Shown here piece by piece: positions 5,824 to 21,085 of a stretch of 21,271 nucleotides of DNA. How positions within the stretch are numbered: the first letter of the stretch is position 1; each line of letters opens with the position of its first letter. Under the pieces are notes generated by a model that saw nothing but the letters and a program-made list of their open reading frames with translations, searched no databases and had not been told where the DNA came from. The stretch covers positions 1 to 21,271 of IMG/VR virus record IMGVR_UViG_3300035698_035405, one strand, 5' to 3'. The stretch comes from a virus. The translations under genes were made by a program, and so were the position numbers.

Positions 5824-6720
5824 ATGACCACTCCCGAAATCGGAACATTCGGACTAATTGCCTTTGATACGGCACTGCCCTTTGATGTCAGCTCAATTCC
5901 GATTGAGATCATTCTTCCGGAGTCATTGGTCGAGACTGCTGAGATCATCGAAACCAACGGTGTGACAGGCACAACAGACCACAATTCAGAGCGAACGCGA
6001 GAAGGATTGAAGCGAGTAGCAGGATCGATCAAGATCGCTTGCTCTCGAATCGCCCTGGATACTCTGCTGCCTTACATCTGTGGAACGGCAGAGGCGGCAA
6101 ACGTATTCGCACTGGCTGACTCTCTGCCTGAGTTTTTGCTGATGATCGACCGCGGTGCCAAAGTCTACACGTACGCCGGCTGCCGGATTGCGAAAGCCAC
6201 ATTCAGCGGAGCAAAAGGAGATTTTCTCTTTCTGGATCTGGACATCGAAGCAGAGACAGAAACAATCGGAAACGCAGGGACGTTCACACCTCTGACTGCT
6301 CCCACTGAGAAGCCGTTCCTGTTCGCTGATGGTGCGCTCACTCTTCAGGCTGCGACTCGCGTATTCGAGAACTTCAGCTTAACGATTGAGAATCGAGTCA
6401 ATACAGAGCTATTCGAAAATAATCTAACTCGTCATGACATCCCTCTGATCGATCGCGTAATCACTCTCGCGACAGATCATCCTTGGGATACAGATAATAC
6501 TGATCTCGTTAAGCAGGATCTTGACGGGGCAGCTGGCACGCTGGTCTTTACGAATGCGGAAGTCGTGACTGACATTCTGACTTTCGCAATGGCTGCGATC
6601 CAATATGCGAATATCACTCCAGCGATAAGCGGTAAGGATGTTCTCAGACTGCCACTGTCTGGAATGGTTCGCAGTTCAGGGTCGACAAAAAGTCTGATTG
6701 TCACCAATGCTCACGCTTAG
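5824..6720 (+). CDS. Major tail tube protein
   Basis: This is the 298-residue probable tail tube subunit. GAGGAAAA lies just before the ATG at 5824; an in-frame start at 5761 would lie inside the previous gene and is less likely. The protein is beta-rich with two similar halves: KRVAGSIKIACSRIALDTLLPYICG and later GALTLQAATRVFENFSLTIENRVNTELFENN, which is the arrangement I associate with the Phage_tube_2 family. The phrase NFSLTIENRVN followed by DRVITLATDHPW is characteristic of two-domain tube proteins. A single tube gene and no sheath gene indicate a non-contractile tail. It lies directly before the chaperone pair, as in lambda-like gene order, and is expected to be the most abundant tail protein. 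Confidence 0.75.
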   Translation: MTTPEIGTFGLIAFDTALPFDVSSIPIEIILPESLVETAEIIETNGVTGTTDHNSERTREGLKRVAGSIKIACSRIALDTLLPYICGTAEAANVFALADSLPEFLLMIDRGAKVYTYAGCRIAKATFSGAKGDFLFLDLDIEAETETIGNAGTFTPLTAPTEKPFLFADGALTLQAATRVFENFSLTIENRVNTELFENNLTRHDIPLIDRVITLATDHPWDTDNTDLVKQDLDGAAGTLVFTNAEVVTDILTFAMAAIQYANITPAISGKDVLRLPLSGMVRSSGSTKSLIVTNAHA

Positions 6721-6802: not shown

Positions 6803-7189
6803 ATGAATGCTAAGAGTTACATTTCAGACGGTTACACCGAGAAAGGGCTGATCAAAGAACTCCCTAAATTGCACGGATCAGTTCGGTTCGAATACCGGGT
6901 CATGCTGTCTGACAAAATCCGTGATGTGTTGCATGCGTGGGATCTGATTTCTTCAACAGAAAAGACGAGGCGTATCCACGCAGTGATATTGAATCAGGTA
7001 ATTAGCTGGGATCTGGAAGAAGACGGAAAGCAGATTCCGCGGGATGCGAATAGCCTATCGCGCCTGAAGCGAAACATTGTCGAGCGGTTGTTTAACATCG
7101 TTACGCAACTGGATGTTTCGGACGAGGTCGAGGAAGAGCTAGACCTGGAGAAGGTTCTCGGCAAGCCAGAGGATGGCACAAAAAACTAA
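6803..7189 (+). CDS. Tail assembly chaperone, short (gpG-like) form
   Basis: This 128-residue acidic-ended helical protein is the zero-frame product of a chaperone pair between tube and tape measure. Such chaperones coat the tape measure and recruit tube subunits, and are not in the finished particle. I favour ATG 6803 because the protein then begins at the well-ordered segment SDGYTEKGLIKELPKLHGSVRFEYRVML; a GTG at 6758 adds 15 residues and has its AAAGG too close. The body is helical (IRDVLHAWDLISSTEKTRRIHAVIL, SLSRLKRNIVERLFNIVTQL) and ends acidic (DEVEEELDLEKV). The last codons are ACA AAA AAC TAA, so the stop directly follows a slippery heptamer. The role is inferred from position plus the frameshift arrangement. 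Confidence 0.75.
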   Translation: MNAKSYISDGYTEKGLIKELPKLHGSVRFEYRVMLSDKIRDVLHAWDLISSTEKTRRIHAVILNQVISWDLEEDGKQIPRDANSLSRLKRNIVERLFNIVTQLDVSDEVEEELDLEKVLGKPEDGTKN

Positions 7190-7572
7190 TTGAGGGGCTG
7201 GGGCTGATCCTGTTCCACCCCGAAGTTGCGTTCAGAGAATGCGAGCATTGCCTCGTTTACATTTACAACGAGGAGACAGGACAGGCGAGAGTCACAAGTC
7301 GTGGAGAATGCTGCAAGCGGCTGACGACTGTGCCTGCTCCCTGTCGAACAAGTAAAGGCTGCCCGAAAGGAACGCCGGAGGATCCCAAGACTCTCAACCT
7401 CAAAAACCAAAAGGCGTATCAACACTGGAAAGAGTGCAAAGCGGTTGGTCAATTCCCCGATGACGACATTGTCCGGAAGCACGCAGCCATTCTTCAGGAG
7501 CTCATTGACCAGGCCAAAGAATACAAGCAAATCCAGTTAATGAGCATGATGCTGTTGGGAAAAGGGGTTTGA
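6803..7572 (+). CDS. Tail assembly chaperone, long (gpGT-like) form made by -1 frameshift
   Basis: Reading 6803-7186, slipping back one base and continuing 7186-7572 gives a 256-residue fusion, as in lambda gpG-T. The downstream frame is open from the slip point to TGA at 7570-7572 and contains no ATG, GTG or TTG until a GTG at 7330, 48 codons in. It therefore has no start that would cover its conserved-looking part. The added 128 residues begin LIEGLGLILFHPEVAF and carry a cysteine cluster: C-x2-C at added residues 19 and 22, CC at 42-43, then C53 and C59, which could bind zinc. A helical part follows (QAYQHWKECKAVG-like, then AAILQELIDQAKEYKQIQLMSMML). In lambda the T part binds the tape measure; I infer the same here. 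Confidence 0.75.
7180..7221 (+). promoter_or_regulatory. Programmed -1 frameshift signal
   Basis: Bases 7180-7186 read AAAAAAC. Split in the zero frame this is A AAA AAC, an exact X-XXY-YYZ heptamer, with the zero-frame stop TAA immediately after it at 7187-7189. Downstream, GGGG at 7194-7197 or 7200-7203 can pair with CCCC at 7218-7221; the first starts seven bases after the heptamer, a spacing suited to a stimulatory stem. The heptamer is certain from the sequence. The stem is a suggestion only, since it is four to five pairs long. Confidence 0.8.
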
Positions 7573-7891: not shown

Positions 7892-9352
7892 ATGCTCTCA
7901 ATTACCGAACAGGATATTGAAAACAATATAAAGTCACAAAACCCATGGTGGGACGAACCACACCAGATAGACCCCAGTCGCCTTGCTATGAATAAGCGCG
8001 AGTACTTTGATCTTTTCTTCCCTTACGTATTGCAGAGAGATCCCAAAAGAGCATTAGTTTTAATGGGGCCACGGCGAGTTGGAAAAACAGTAATCCTATT
8101 TCAGTCAATACAAAAGCTAATCAACAATGGGACTGATCCAAAGACTATCTGTTATGTTGACATGCAGACCCCTTTACTGCATGGATTCACATTGGAGTCG
8201 CTTGTGACTAGGTTCATCGAAGCAGCTGAACTGGACACGAGTAGTGAATATTACATTTTCTTTGATGAAATCCAGTATTTAAAAAATTGGGAAGTACATC
8301 TTAAAAATCTTGTAGATAGATTTTCCAAAGCTAAATTTATTGTCTCTGGCTCTGCTGCAGCTGCCTTAAAACTTAAAAGTGAAGAGTCTGGAGCAGGTCG
8401 ATTTACAGACTTTATGTTGCCGCCTGTGACCTTTTATGAATACATGAAGCTCGTTGACGACACGCTTCTGTTGCATGAAACAGAAGAAGATGGGGACGGA
8501 AAAAAAGTTAACTTTGTTAAGTGGAATGAGCTCAATGAAATAAATGAACAATTCATTAACTATTTAAATATAGGGGGATATCCAGAAGCTATTTTTTCAC
8601 CCGAAGTGCAAAAAAATCCCAGCAGGTTCATTCAGAGTGATATTATTGATAAAGTCTTAATGAAAGACCTCCCGAGCTTGTATGGAATCAGTGATATTGG
8701 CGACTTAAACAAACTATTTGCGAGCATAGCTTACAATACTGGTGGGGAGCTATGCTTGGATGCTCTTGCATCTGATACCAGGATGAAGAAAGACACTCTG
8801 AAAAAATATATGGAGTATTTAGAGTCTGCATTTTTAATTAAACGAATAAACAGAATAGACCAATCATGCAAATCATTTAAGAGGGCTAATTATTTTAAGG
8901 TATATTTAGTCAATCCTTGCATGTATAGCGTCATGTTTAATCCAATAACAAGCGTAAATGATAATATTGGAAACCTTGTTGAAACTGCAGTGTTTGCACA
9001 ATGGTATCACTCACAGTATCCACTTTATTATGCGCGCTGGCAGGGAGGAAAAGGCGAGGTGGACTTTGTGCGTCTTATGAAAAACCAAAAACCAGGCTGG
9101 GTAACGGAGGTGAAATGGTCTGACAATTTTGTCGATAATAAAACTAAACTCAGTAGCCTTAATGCATTCCTTGCTAAGCACCCCGATTGTATTGCTACTG
9201 TTACTTCTAAAACAGAGAATTATCAACATTTTGAGCTGGGCAAACATACTGTGAATGTCTCGCCTGCTAGCGTTTATTGCTATATTGTAGGCAGCTATAT
9301 AATTAATGCGAAGCGAGAAGACAATATGAGCATTTCAATCCAAGTTGACTGA
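7892..9352 (+). CDS. P-loop ATPase of the AAA_14 / DUF4143 type
   Basis: This 486-residue protein has the two-part design of the widespread AAA_14-DUF4143 ATPases. Walker A is GPRRVGKT at 59-66, Walker B is YYIFFDEIQYL at 120-130, and a sensor-like KFIVSGSAAAAL follows. A winged-helix-like middle (DALASDTRMKKDTLKKYMEYL, then SAFLIKRI) precedes the C-terminal domain. There NLVETAVFAQW, GEVDFV and VTEVKW line up as the E / D / E-x-K residues of a PD-(D/E)xK-like nuclease fold, as known for DUF4143. The biological role of the family is largely unknown. The start has only a weak AGAAAG site. The gene is AT-rich (14 G/C of 60 at 8281-8340), unlike the tail genes after it, and has its own candidate promoter and terminator. 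I infer cargo, possibly protective against other phages, not a virion protein. Confidence 0.85.
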   Translation: MLSITEQDIENNIKSQNPWWDEPHQIDPSRLAMNKREYFDLFFPYVLQRDPKRALVLMGPRRVGKTVILFQSIQKLINNGTDPKTICYVDMQTPLLHGFTLESLVTRFIEAAELDTSSEYYIFFDEIQYLKNWEVHLKNLVDRFSKAKFIVSGSAAAALKLKSEESGAGRFTDFMLPPVTFYEYMKLVDDTLLLHETEEDGDGKKVNFVKWNELNEINEQFINYLNIGGYPEAIFSPEVQKNPSRFIQSDIIDKVLMKDLPSLYGISDIGDLNKLFASIAYNTGGELCLDALASDTRMKKDTLKKYMEYLESAFLIKRINRIDQSCKSFKRANYFKVYLVNPCMYSVMFNPITSVNDNIGNLVETAVFAQWYHSQYPLYYARWQGGKGEVDFVRLMKNQKPGWVTEVKWSDNFVDNKTKLSSLNAFLAKHPDCIATVTSKTENYQHFELGKHTVNVSPASVYCYIVGSYIINAKREDNMSISIQVD

Positions 9353-9470: not shown

Positions 9471-9668
9471 TCACAGGCTCCGAACAATCACTGATATCAG
9501 TTTGCCCAGCATAAGAGCCCCCGTGACCATGGTTAGCACTACGACTCCATATACCACATTCTCTGTGAGATTGTGCCTTCTGGCCGCATTGAGTGTGGTT
9601 TCAGCGGCTTTGATGCGGCCTGCTTTTTCAGTCGCTTCTGCGTGCGTACGGGCGATGGGTTGGATCAT
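9471..9668 (-). CDS. Small single-pass membrane protein
   Basis: The product is 65 residues: a basic, helical N-terminal half (ATEKAGRIKAAETTLNAARRHN) and one membrane segment near 40-61 (VYGVVVLTMVTGALMLGKLI). Its ATG lies one base after the stop of the other minus-strand gene (TAA-C-ATG), so translation is probably coupled. There is no clear ribosome site of its own. It is antisense to the direction of the phage late genes. I do not recognise it. A single membrane span with a soluble N-terminal domain could fit a holin-like, spanin-like or superinfection-exclusion protein, but nothing in the sequence decides this. It is short, so there is some risk that it is not translated. Confidence 0.55.
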   Translation of the reverse strand: MIQPIARTHAEATEKAGRIKAAETTLNAARRHNLTENVVYGVVVLTMVTGALMLGKLISVIVRSL

Positions 9669-9669
9669 G

Positions 9670-9957
9670 TTATTTCATGGCCCAATAGATAAGGCCACCC
9701 GAGAAAATGCAGGTGACGATCAAGATCACAAAGCTAGCTTTAAATTCGGAAACTTTGTTTTTGGCGTGCAAATGAAGCTGCTGGACTTCGGGCGACATTG
9801 CGGCGAACTCTTGCGCTTCTTTGTATTTGCGTTTTTTGACCTGCCTTGGGGTTTCGAAACGTCCACTCTTAACGCCATACCAGATCCATAGAACGCTAAA
9901 AACAAAAAGGCACACGATTATGACAATGGTTTGTTGGGTGAGATCTTCATTGTTCAT
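9670..9957 (-). CDS. Small two-pass membrane protein
   Basis: This 95-residue protein has two membrane segments, IVIIVCLFVFSVLWIWYGV (near 12-30) and FVILIVTCIFSGGLIYWAM (near 76-94). They flank a basic, charged helical middle (TPRQVKKRKYKEAQEFAAM, then EVQQLHLHAKNKVSEFK). The ATG at 9957 gives a sensible start; a TTG at 10008 in frame would overlap the tape measure start and is less likely. The start lies 33 bases from the tape measure ATG on the other strand. On the minus strand TATTAT at 9978-9973 could be a -10 element but no good -35 is seen. Function is unknown. It forms a two-gene minus-strand unit with the next gene. Confidence 0.62.
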   Translation of the reverse strand: MNNEDLTQQTIVIIVCLFVFSVLWIWYGVKSGRFETPRQVKKRKYKEAQEFAAMSPEVQQLHLHAKNKVSEFKASFVILIVTCIFSGGLIYWAMK

Positions 9958-9990
9958 GGTTAAGCCAAGCAGATAATAGGTGATACTTAA

Positions 9991-11871
9991 ATGGTAGCTG
10001 AAGCACAACGTAACGTAATCATTGCACTCAAGCTAGCCGCCGATCCTAAGAATCAGGCTATCGCAAATCAGGTTGCGAGTCAAGCAAAAACAGTCGCGGT
10101 TGCAGGCTTGAATGCTGCTAAGCAGGCAGCAGGGGTTCATTCACGTATTGAGGCTGGAAGAACAGCCGATCACGGGGCTGAATCTAGCAAACGAATTGAT
10201 AATGCTTTAAAAGAAAATGATAAACGCGCAAAAGCTGCCACGGAGCTTTCTGACAAGATTCGCAAAACAGAAGAACTGAGAACCCAGTCCCGACAAAAAG
10301 CCAATGAAGCTGGATTGATTGCTGTGCAAGGCATGCTCTCTATGGCAGAGGGAGCAGCGAAATTAGGGTTGGTCACAGAAGACAACTTTCAAAAGTTTGC
10401 AAAACAGTTCGTCGTGATCCAGTCTGGGATGCAGGTCTTCAAAGGTGCGACCGACATGTATTGGAAAGGGCGAGAAGCTCTGGTTGCCTTAAGTGCTGCC
10501 ACTAATGCCCAGACGACCGCCAATAACTTAATGTCAGCCAGTAACGTTCGGGCTGCCAGTACCACTGCTTTGTCTGGAGGTAGTGGTGTCGTGCGAGGCG
10601 GAACAGCACTGGCTGGATTAGGAACCCTTGCGCTATTGGCTGGTGAATTAGCAGCAGCAGCTGTCTTTGGCGTTGCATTGCATGATGCTATAAAATTGTT
10701 GATGGGGTCGATGGGTGATGGTGCAGATGCATCTGACACGATGACGGGAAGTCTTCTCGGATGGTGGGATGCATCAACCAAAGCAGCAGAGTCAACGAAA
10801 ACGCTCACCAAAGCGGAAGAAAAACGCCAGAAGCGATTGAAAGAGTCTCAGAAGTTTGCAGAGAAAGAGGCAGTCCGCTCTGGCTTTCAAGCAGATCTTC
10901 GAAACCGGCGAAATAGAATCGTCGGCCACCGTGCTTTGCTTGCTGGTGAGACCCCGGGCGATACCGCGGACCGAAGGCGTCAAAATGCCTTGGGGGATGT
11001 TAGAGCAGCCGAGTCAGAGGTAGAGCGGACTCGTAAATTAGATACGAGGCGTGGAGCATCAGGGCAATTTGTGAGTGATGAGAACCGTATCCGAGTAGCC
11101 AAGGCTCTTGAAGATGCACAGCTTCGGCTATTGGATATCGAGCAGCAGCGGTTATCCACTGTCCGCGACCAAAACACGCAATTATCAGAGCAATTGAAAA
11201 CTGAGCAGGCTCGGCTTAAATCGACCGTTGCTGCGGGCAAGACAGAAAAGGAAAGGTTGCTTGAGAAGTTCGGTAATCTGAATCCGGTTCTGCAATCACA
11301 ATTCCGCATGATTGCTGCAAAGGCAGATTCTGGGAAAGAAATTTCAGAACTAGATAAACGAGTTCTTGTGCAGGCAGGATTCAAGGGTGAGCTCACGCAA
11401 CAGTTTGGCGCCAAGAAAGGGAAAAAGGCGGGCGGGGAGGATGCTCTCAGGTCGTTGGGCTTCTTCGAAAAGTTTGCTAACGCCAACCATGATCAGCTCA
11501 TGAAAACAGGAAGTGTTTCAGCCCAACTCGGTTTAGGTAAATCTCACGAGAAAGACATCGTCGAGCAGGCAAGCCCTATTGCTGAAGCACTCAAGAAACA
11601 GACCGAGGCACGGATTAAGCTTGAAGCGGAATTCCTGAAGATCAGTGAAGCCAGCATTAAGGGGCTCAATCAACCGTTTATAAAAGCGCAGGAGAAAGTC
11701 TCCGCAATGATGCAGAAGGCCGCTGCTGATGCGAGTGACGCGATCACAGCATCATCCATGAAGAACGTTGAAGCGATGAAGTCCATGACGAACGCATTCC
11801 TGCAGGGCCAAGAAGAAATGAAGAAAGCAATCGATCAGAGTGAGCTATTGAAAAAGGCTTATGGGACATGA
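9991..11871 (+). CDS. Tape measure protein
   Basis: This 626-residue helical protein follows the chaperone region and precedes the tail-tip genes. AGGTGA lies about nine bases before the ATG. The N-terminal 160 residues and residues about 265-420 are rich in Ala, Lys, Glu, Gln and Arg with long heptad-like runs (EKRQKRLKESQKFAEKEAVR, EDAQLRLLDIEQQRLSTVRD). Between them is a hydrophobic stretch near 205-240 (GLGTLALLAGELAAAAVFGV), as tape measures often carry a membrane-active segment. Using about 1.5 angstroms per residue, known for other siphophages, the tail would be near 95 nm. It is separated from its chaperone genes by 2.4 kb of unrelated genes, which is unusual. It overlaps the next gene by four bases (ATGA). 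Confidence 0.78.
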   Translation: MVAEAQRNVIIALKLAADPKNQAIANQVASQAKTVAVAGLNAAKQAAGVHSRIEAGRTADHGAESSKRIDNALKENDKRAKAATELSDKIRKTEELRTQSRQKANEAGLIAVQGMLSMAEGAAKLGLVTEDNFQKFAKQFVVIQSGMQVFKGATDMYWKGREALVALSAATNAQTTANNLMSASNVRAASTTALSGGSGVVRGGTALAGLGTLALLAGELAAAAVFGVALHDAIKLLMGSMGDGADASDTMTGSLLGWWDASTKAAESTKTLTKAEEKRQKRLKESQKFAEKEAVRSGFQADLRNRRNRIVGHRALLAGETPGDTADRRRQNALGDVRAAESEVERTRKLDTRRGASGQFVSDENRIRVAKALEDAQLRLLDIEQQRLSTVRDQNTQLSEQLKTEQARLKSTVAAGKTEKERLLEKFGNLNPVLQSQFRMIAAKADSGKEISELDKRVLVQAGFKGELTQQFGAKKGKKAGGEDALRSLGFFEKFANANHDQLMKTGSVSAQLGLGKSHEKDIVEQASPIAEALKKQTEARIKLEAEFLKISEASIKGLNQPFIKAQEKVSAMMQKAAADASDAITASSMKNVEAMKSMTNAFLQGQEEMKKAIDQSELLKKAYGT

Positions 11872-19441: not shown

Positions 19442-21085
19442 ATGAGTGGTTTATCCCACTGCCTCAAGCAGTTTCGTCAGTTCTCAGACCTCGAAGTATC
19501 AAAACAGCAATTCGAAAGCAGAATCAGGGCGTGCGAAACATGCCCTCAGCGAGCGGATACTCGATGCAATCAGCATTCTGTAAACTGTGCTGATTACTCA
19601 AAGCAGAAAGCCAACTGGTGCAAACCGTGGAGTGAACCAGAACCTCCGAAGCCAGTCGCTTCACGTGGAGACTGGAGCGAGATCACCGCATCTACTTACG
19701 AGCTTCCAGGGTTACCAATGAATCCTGAATCGAAGCCGGTCGTGCTGCCTTCATTCAATTACCGTAATGATCTGGGGCTCTATCTGAATCAGTTGGGTCT
19801 CACAGGCCACGGTGTTGAAATGGGCGTTTTTCAATGCGCCTTCAGTAAGCAGATTATGAAACACTGGAAGGGGGAAAAGCTTTATTTGGTTGATATCGCC
19901 TTTGATCAGAGGCACGAGATTCCCAAAACAGAATTCATCGAAAAACCCAGCATGGAAGCGCACCATGATTTTGAAGACGCTTCACTGGATTTTGTTTACA
20001 TTGACGGGGCGCACGATTTCCATTCCATCACGGACGATCTGGAAGTCTGGTATGAGAAAGTCAAACCGGGCGGGCTGTTCTGCGGTCACGATTACATTAA
20101 CTCTTATGACCTGGACGTGACAGGCCACCAGCCGGTCCCTCTGGACGTTTGGCCGAACGAATGCGAGTCTTTGACCTACGGTGTAAAGGTTGCTGTTACA
20201 CGCTTTGCTAAGCGGCGAGGGTTGAAGGTTTACCAGACCACGGATGATGAAAAGGGGTCACCATCGTGGTTTATTATCAAGCCATATCGATTCGTAACGA
20301 CATTGACTGAGTCGTTTTTGCCGGGCTTTATCGGGCTGATTCAGTCGATGAAGGAAAATGCCGGTATTGAGTTCTGTTTCACTGTCGTTGAATATGCGCC
20401 GATCAGCCAGAAACAAAAAGACATCGTTAACGCGATGGGAATACATATTGATTGGATTGCGAAAGAGCTATTAGGACACTTTGAATTCGACCGATCAAGT
20501 ACAGACAGTCCTCGTATGGCTTGGAATCTCAATAAGTTTCTTGTGTGGTTACTGCCGCATCGCGGGCCGATGTGTTACACCGATGTGGATGTACTTTGTT
20601 TGAACAGCTTACGTGATATCACAGACCTTCAACCGTTATCTGTCACAGTCATGCAGTCGGCGATTGGTAAAGAACCGGACGCGATGAATCAGTACAGGCC
20701 CTCGGGGAAGTATCCGTTTAACGCTGGCTGGTTTATTTTCGAGCGATCCGAGCAAATCTACAAAGAGTGCCAGGAGTACGCGAAGTCATATAAAGGCTCT
20801 CGCATCGCCTTCGGTGATCAAGTCCCCATGAATGATTACTGGGCATCACAGAGACCGGATGAAATCAATTATGTAAATGTGAATTGGAATATCAGTCATT
20901 GGTGCCTGCACAATCACAATTATTTATTCGAGTGGGATCAGGTGAAGCTGCTTCATTTTGCACACGCCGACAAACCGTGGAAAGATGAGCCTTCCTATAA
21001 ATGGATGGAAAAAGGTTGGCAGTTATTCAGGGGATTCTATGAGCGTGGGATATTGGCCGCGAATCAAAAGCTGAAATCTACTTAA
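19442..21085 (+). CDS. Methyltransferase-glycosyltransferase fusion with N-terminal Cys cluster
   Basis: This 547-residue protein has three parts. Residues 31-60 hold Cys at 31, 34, 42, 49 and 60, a probable metal-binding cluster. Residues about 105-285 are a class I SAM methyltransferase of the Methyltransf_24 kind: motif I VEMGVF (125-130), LYLVDIAF (147-154), FVYIDGAHDF (184-193), and VKPGGLFCGHDY (207-218). Residues about 285-540 are a GT-A glycosyltransferase: the D-x-D motif in CYTDVDVLCL (DVD at 381-383) and a GT8-like ending LLHFAHADKPW. Both active-site signatures look intact. The gene follows the tail-tip genes with a 19-base gap. I infer that it makes and methylates a sugar on a tail protein or on the host surface; the acceptor and sugar cannot be read from the sequence. 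Confidence 0.78.
   Translation: MSGLSHCLKQFRQFSDLEVSKQQFESRIRACETCPQRADTRCNQHSVNCADYSKQKANWCKPWSEPEPPKPVASRGDWSEITASTYELPGLPMNPESKPVVLPSFNYRNDLGLYLNQLGLTGHGVEMGVFQCAFSKQIMKHWKGEKLYLVDIAFDQRHEIPKTEFIEKPSMEAHHDFEDASLDFVYIDGAHDFHSITDDLEVWYEKVKPGGLFCGHDYINSYDLDVTGHQPVPLDVWPNECESLTYGVKVAVTRFAKRRGLKVYQTTDDEKGSPSWFIIKPYRFVTTLTESFLPGFIGLIQSMKENAGIEFCFTVVEYAPISQKQKDIVNAMGIHIDWIAKELLGHFEFDRSSTDSPRMAWNLNKFLVWLLPHRGPMCYTDVDVLCLNSLRDITDLQPLSVTVMQSAIGKEPDAMNQYRPSGKYPFNAGWFIFERSEQIYKECQEYAKSYKGSRIAFGDQVPMNDYWASQRPDEINYVNVNWNISHWCLHNHNYLFEWDQVKLLHFAHADKPWKDEPSYKWMEKGWQLFRGFYERGILAANQKLKST

Follow-up and report, generated by a model that had tools for sequence, protein, structure and literature searches.

A virus contig of 21,271 bases, belonging to a phage with planctomycete-type hosts, analysed here over its whole length and referred to as the window, carries in its tail module two overlapping reading frames, the second of which lies in the -1 frame. 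This layout raises the question of how the second frame is translated and what the two frames encode. In the lambda-type G/GT system, frameshifting yields the short and the fused product at a ratio of ~30:1 (PMC5009743), and the G-T frameshift is described as conserved in dsDNA tailed phages (Xu, Hendrix and Duda, 2004, as cited in PMC5009743).

Reading frames and gene order

Direct inspection of the junction gives GGC ACA AAA AAC TAA in the zero frame. As the preliminary description had stated, the slippery heptamer A AAA AAC thus stands in zero-frame register (7180-7186) and is followed at once by TAA (7187-7189). The -1 frame, read from CTA at 7186, is open for 128 codons up to the TGA at 7570-7572. 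Its first ATG, GTG or TTG is the GTG at 7330 (codon 49), so that 48 codons precede any standard start, again in agreement with that description; CTG is present in the window at codons 5, 7 and 9. The features relevant to the locus are the following:

5824..6720, + strand: tail tube protein (Phage_tube_2), Pfam PF18906, E=2.2e-16; lies next to G on its upstream side in most relatives whose sequence extends far enough
6803..7189, + strand: zero-frame ORF of 128 aa opening with ATG at 6803, putative G-like tail assembly chaperone (relatives, fold)
7180..7186, + strand: slippery heptamer A AAA AAC in zero-frame register (sequence; same position in relatives)
7187..7189, + strand: zero-frame stop TAA, abutting the heptamer (sequence)
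7186..7572, + strand: -1 frame of 128 aa, putative T-like C-terminal extension with four invariant cysteines; fused in frame to G in four relatives
7194..7221, + strand: stem-loop 3' of the slip site (RNA fold, codon-preserving control, covariation)
9991..11871, + strand: presumed tape measure protein of 626 aa (position and alpha-helical composition)

The tail module of the window comprises genes for capsid (PF05065), connector (PF05135), tail completion (PF05069) and tail tube (PF18906) proteins, the two frames, and the long helical ORF. Pfam and PHROG searches returned no match for the latter; a long ORF also lies downstream of T in relatives, and it probably encodes the tape measure protein. 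In most loci with flanking sequence the order is tail tube, G, T, long ORF, which places the G/T pair between tube and tape measure, as in the gene order of lambda-type G/GT systems.

T and the presumed tape measure gene of the window are separated by an ATPase gene and by small genes. The ATPase gene (AAA_14/DUF4143, 7892-9352, + strand; PF13173, E=8.6e-31, and PF13635) is inserted in the tail module, has a lower G+C content and was not seen at the equivalent place in L008 or L010. Between T and the tape measure gene, two small membrane-protein-like genes (9471-9668 and 9670-10008) run on the other strand and are possibly lysogenic cargo; for the one at 9670-10008, relatives occupy the same place in L010 (52%), L004 and L008, and Pfam gave no match. 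At the end of the tail module, a single protein (19442-21085, + strand) unites a methyltransferase (PF13578) and a glycosyltransferase 8 domain (PF01501). Rfam gave no match within the window.

Conservation of the junction among relatives

Searches with T led to L002, L004, L007 and L013 among viral contigs and, among planctomycete contigs, to L008 and L009 (a Gimesia genome); a further contig, L010, bears the label Emcibacter and is possibly misbinned. A T profile matched 30 of 170 genomes of the family to which the Gimesia genome belongs and 14 of 392 genomes sampled across the phylum, and a wider profile matched 49 of 398 genomes of a class sample. Relatives were found with T and tail tube queries, whereas a scan for close relatives with G alone found none, and a tblastn search of cultured phages with the T and tube proteins was unproductive. 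L005 was left out, being a distant tube match only. The resulting set holds 57 unfused loci from viral contigs and planctomycete genomes in which the two frames are separate; 21 of these were added by later, wider searches, after the pattern had been defined. Some loci overlap or are near-identical, so the counts are not independent.

The preliminary description had proposed looking for the heptamer in homologous loci. A canonical X_XXY_YYZ site is present exactly at the junction in 55 of the 57 unfused loci, distributed over AAAAAAC (42), GGGAAAC (9), AAAAAAA (3) and GGGAAAG (1). Every unfused locus of the first set has A AAA AAC or G GGA AAC at this place, and 19 of the 21 loci added later are likewise canonical, including those with GGGAAAG and AAAAAAA. 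The part of G preceding the heptamer differs among relatives in length and sequence, yet G ends at the heptamer; conservation of the protein therefore does not explain the slip site. Since the heptamer switches between four types, it is the slipperiness and not the Lys-Asn sequence that is kept. As judged from sequence comparison, its occurrence at the junction is more than chance, given its recurrence in nearly every relative in spite of the freely varying end of G. A_AAA_AAC is listed as a consensus heptamer by GeneTack, whose text yielded no case from planctomycete tails (PMC3711429).

Loci that lost the heptamer but retain both frames had been named in advance as evidence against frameshifting; the only ones seen were L095 (AAGAAAC), which has an in-frame TGA in T and is probably decaying, and L117 (GGGGGAA). 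Elsewhere, a missing heptamer goes with an in-frame fusion or a broken remnant. Where both halves are intact and the site is absent, G and T usually form a single frame (L051, L052, L054 and L082); L053, cut by the contig end, looks like these fused loci. The G-homologous part of the fused loci was verified by profile, and no canonical heptamer lies near four of the five fused junctions (L051-L054 and L082). That in-frame fusions are found without a heptamer implies that evolution tolerates, or requires, a G-T fusion protein, and also that separate G is not always made via a frameshift.

This recurrence bears on whether the -1 frame is simply a dead remnant or a sequencing indel splitting one gene. 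A few loci are indeed decayed or fused (L011, L028, L095, L126), but the same split occurs in dozens of genomes with T intact and its cysteines invariant, so this explanation is contradicted by the relatives and has next to no probability. As to the decayed loci, L011 (7992-8312) is an orphan T without G or heptamer beside an apparent transposase gene; this decayed copy shares its genome with the intact L008. In L028 (locus on the reverse strand, ORF opening at 709), a single 510-aa ORF links capsid protein to the C-terminal portion of T and to a tail protein encoded further along; it is a prophage collapsed through in-frame deletions.

A change of frame during transcription, by RNA polymerase slipping on the A run and producing a minority of messages in frame, would fit the six to eight A present in most loci and the AAAAAAA of three. 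Six A, though, are short for polymerase slippage, the GGGAAAC and GGGAAAG loci have no long run, and a downstream RNA hairpin under codon-level selection (see below) suits slippage by the ribosome; we regard the transcriptional route as highly implausible.

T might also be a separate protein, translated by coupled re-initiation just past the G stop at codon 5 of the -1 frame. This codon is NTG in 19 of 31 loci, among them ATG in L008 and L009, ~8 nt past the stop, and the remnant L011, which has no G, retains T from about codon 5. On the other hand, codon 5 of the window is only CTG, a poor start, and 12 of the 31 loci have no NTG there (GTA, GTC, ATC or GCG). The preliminary description had also held that homologues in which T has its own start and ribosome site would count against a frameshift. 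The nearest approach to such a start is the codon-5 ATG of L002/L008 and L009, with GTG elsewhere; the 31 loci are non-redundant, and the purine run lies ~1 nt from the ATG, too close for a normal ribosome site. The codon-5 GTG is accounted for by the GGGGTG arm of the hairpin, and re-initiation leaves the conserved heptamer and the fusions unexplained. Independent or coupled initiation of T is accordingly unlikely, and re-initiation at codon 5 in particular very much so.

The downstream hairpin, the abutting stop and the proposed mechanism

A stem-loop beyond the stop, which had not been among the claims of the preliminary description, was found by RNA folding of the sequences after the stop. 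The stem of about nine pairs begins 7-8 nt after the heptamer; in the window it pairs 7194-7197 with 7218-7221 and 7199-7204 with 7212-7217, leaving a loop at 7205-7211 and a spacer of 7 nt. Because this region is coding, stability was compared with that of 1000 recodings per locus that keep the amino acids and the local codon bias. The stem-loop of the window folds with -15.7 kcal/mol (z=-3.5, p=0.003). In the core clade, all 31 loci are more stable than the mean of their recodings (mean z -3.08), 26 of them at p<0.05. Covariation analysis gave 29 double-changed pair cells against 13.2+-2.9 after shuffling (0/500), a count that is lowered by stems lying one base out of register in some loci. 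The distant loci show a mean z of -1.07 with 7 of 21 significant, and the hairpin is weak or absent in most of them and in L004; it is thus a feature of the clade of the window and not of all relatives. When the first 104 nt past the heptamer were folded, no signal exceeded that of the short hairpin. A possible pseudoknot between the loop (TCCTGT) and an ACAGGA near 7276 can form in the window and in L002 but fails in L007 and was dropped.

Programmed -1 ribosomal frameshifting, by which two tail assembly chaperones are made from one message, is the reading that we hold with high confidence. Most ribosomes would terminate at the codon abutting A AAA AAC, releasing G (128 aa). A minority would be held by the hairpin 7-8 nt downstream with AAA and AAC in the decoding sites, slip back by one base and read AAA AAA CTA ATT..., yielding G-T (256 aa). 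By analogy with lambda, G would coat the tape measure protein, and the T part would recruit tail tube subunits. Comparison of relatives bears out the conserved slip site, the core-clade hairpin, a gene order common to them and G-T fusions that occur naturally; we infer the slippage event, its rate and, by that analogy, the binding roles. AAC-type sites are poor in E. coli, yet insertion elements make use of them (PMC5009743, PMC4066793). The rate at this locus may accordingly be low, which would suit lambda's 30:1 ratio of G to GT.

The preliminary description had further suggested that the stop touching the heptamer aids slippage. Such a flush stop is found in 42 of the 57 loci (TGA 16, TAA 13, TAG 13), where ~11 are expected when T is allowed to begin with Leu (CTN); the binomial P of ~3e-19 ignores relatedness and serves only as a guide. 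In the remaining 15 loci the stop comes later or is missing up to the end of the contig, with the slip site still present in nearly all. This bears the suggestion out only in part, the touching stop being conserved far beyond chance and favoured but not needed.

The stop may itself contribute to the frameshift signal. Combined with AAC-type heptamers and with hosts that read AAG by a tRNA-Lys of its own, this would amount to a termination-coupled, planctomycete-tuned G-T frameshift, a proposal that we put forward tentatively and consider rather doubtful. The stop would be in, or entering, the decoding site, slow termination and the hairpin would hold the ribosome, and slippage would compete with release. 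A host genome (G076) encodes tRNA-Lys for both AAA and AAG (anticodons TTT and CTT). Dense tRNA arrays (11 tRNAs in ~1.2 kb) were observed in L165 (G076:C1:4822300-4823900) and L160, in a planctomycete genome with a related prophage elsewhere; they are probably located on mobile elements.

The proteins and comparable systems

G (29 relatives) and T (31 relatives) gave no convincing Pfam or PHROG family, neither singly nor as alignments of 29-31 members, and a sequence search of the PDB found no relative of either. As far as sequence searches go, the pair is a protein family that no database describes. The predicted fold of G (pLDDT 86.7) weakly resembles tail assembly chaperones: the top PDB matches of the model are 2ob9 (HK97 tail assembly chaperone) and 3klu (YqbN), both weak (E 0.45-1.1), and matches among the BFVD viral models include named tail assembly chaperones (E 0.003-0.06). 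The -1 product T is predicted with a pLDDT of 93, and its first helix begins at residue 2, so the residues right after the slip belong to the fold. C19, C22, C53 and C59 are invariant in the 31 relatives, in line with the cysteine cluster and helices noted earlier for this frame, and suggest a metal site, possibly a zinc ribbon.

The likeness to lambda gpG/gpGT, proposed in the preliminary description, consists in two overlapping frames between the tube and tape measure genes, a -1 slip heptamer ending the first frame, and the fusion as presumed minor product. It is strongly supported: gene order fits (the fold of G does so only weakly), the canonical heptamer lies in register near the end of G with T in the -1 frame (55 of 57 loci), fusions occur, and T lacks an initiation signal (in the window no standard start occurs before codon 49; codon-5 NTG missing in 12 of 31 relatives). 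Lambda-type systems further make the fusion at a few percent, in balance with G, and neither protein is part of the virion. In contrast to lambda, no sequence similarity to a Pfam or PHROG family is detectable, the site is AAAAAAC and not of the AAG type, the stop usually abuts the heptamer, T has four invariant cysteines, and the core clade has a covarying hairpin. The GGGAAAG heptamer of L119 is lambda's own site.

HK97 gp13 (PDB 2ob9) resembles the predicted fold of G as its top PDB match, but weakly (E 0.45, TM ~0.33-0.37) and with unrelated sequence. HK97-like chaperone genes showed 6-7% frameshifting in reporters (PMC3711429). The haloarchaeal viruses HCTV-1, -2 and -5 also have a g-t frameshift system, which, unlike this locus, is archaeal. 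The A6C frameshift of IS1 insA-insB' likewise uses AAAAAAC for a -1 shift in a bacterium, at ~2% by one report (PMC12428005), but it yields a transposase, and the proteins are unrelated to G and T. What the locus presents is a new family with a known trick, not a new mechanism.

A literature search found no paper on planctomycete prophage tail chaperones. The present comparison points to G-T frameshifting in prophages of planctomycetes. It also adds a putative chaperone family that escapes annotation pipelines, since T lacks a start codon and no model exists for either half. The dozens of aligned sites, with their heptamer switches, fusions and movable stops, form a test set for frameshift rate outside E. 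coli; it bears on why AAC-type sites, poor in E. coli, are preferred here and on whether the flush stop helps.

Finally, nucleotide identity between the window and L002 is unusually high over the cysteine region (7224-7400), silent sites included, relative to the remainder of G/T, which may reflect either recent recombination or a further constraint at the RNA level.
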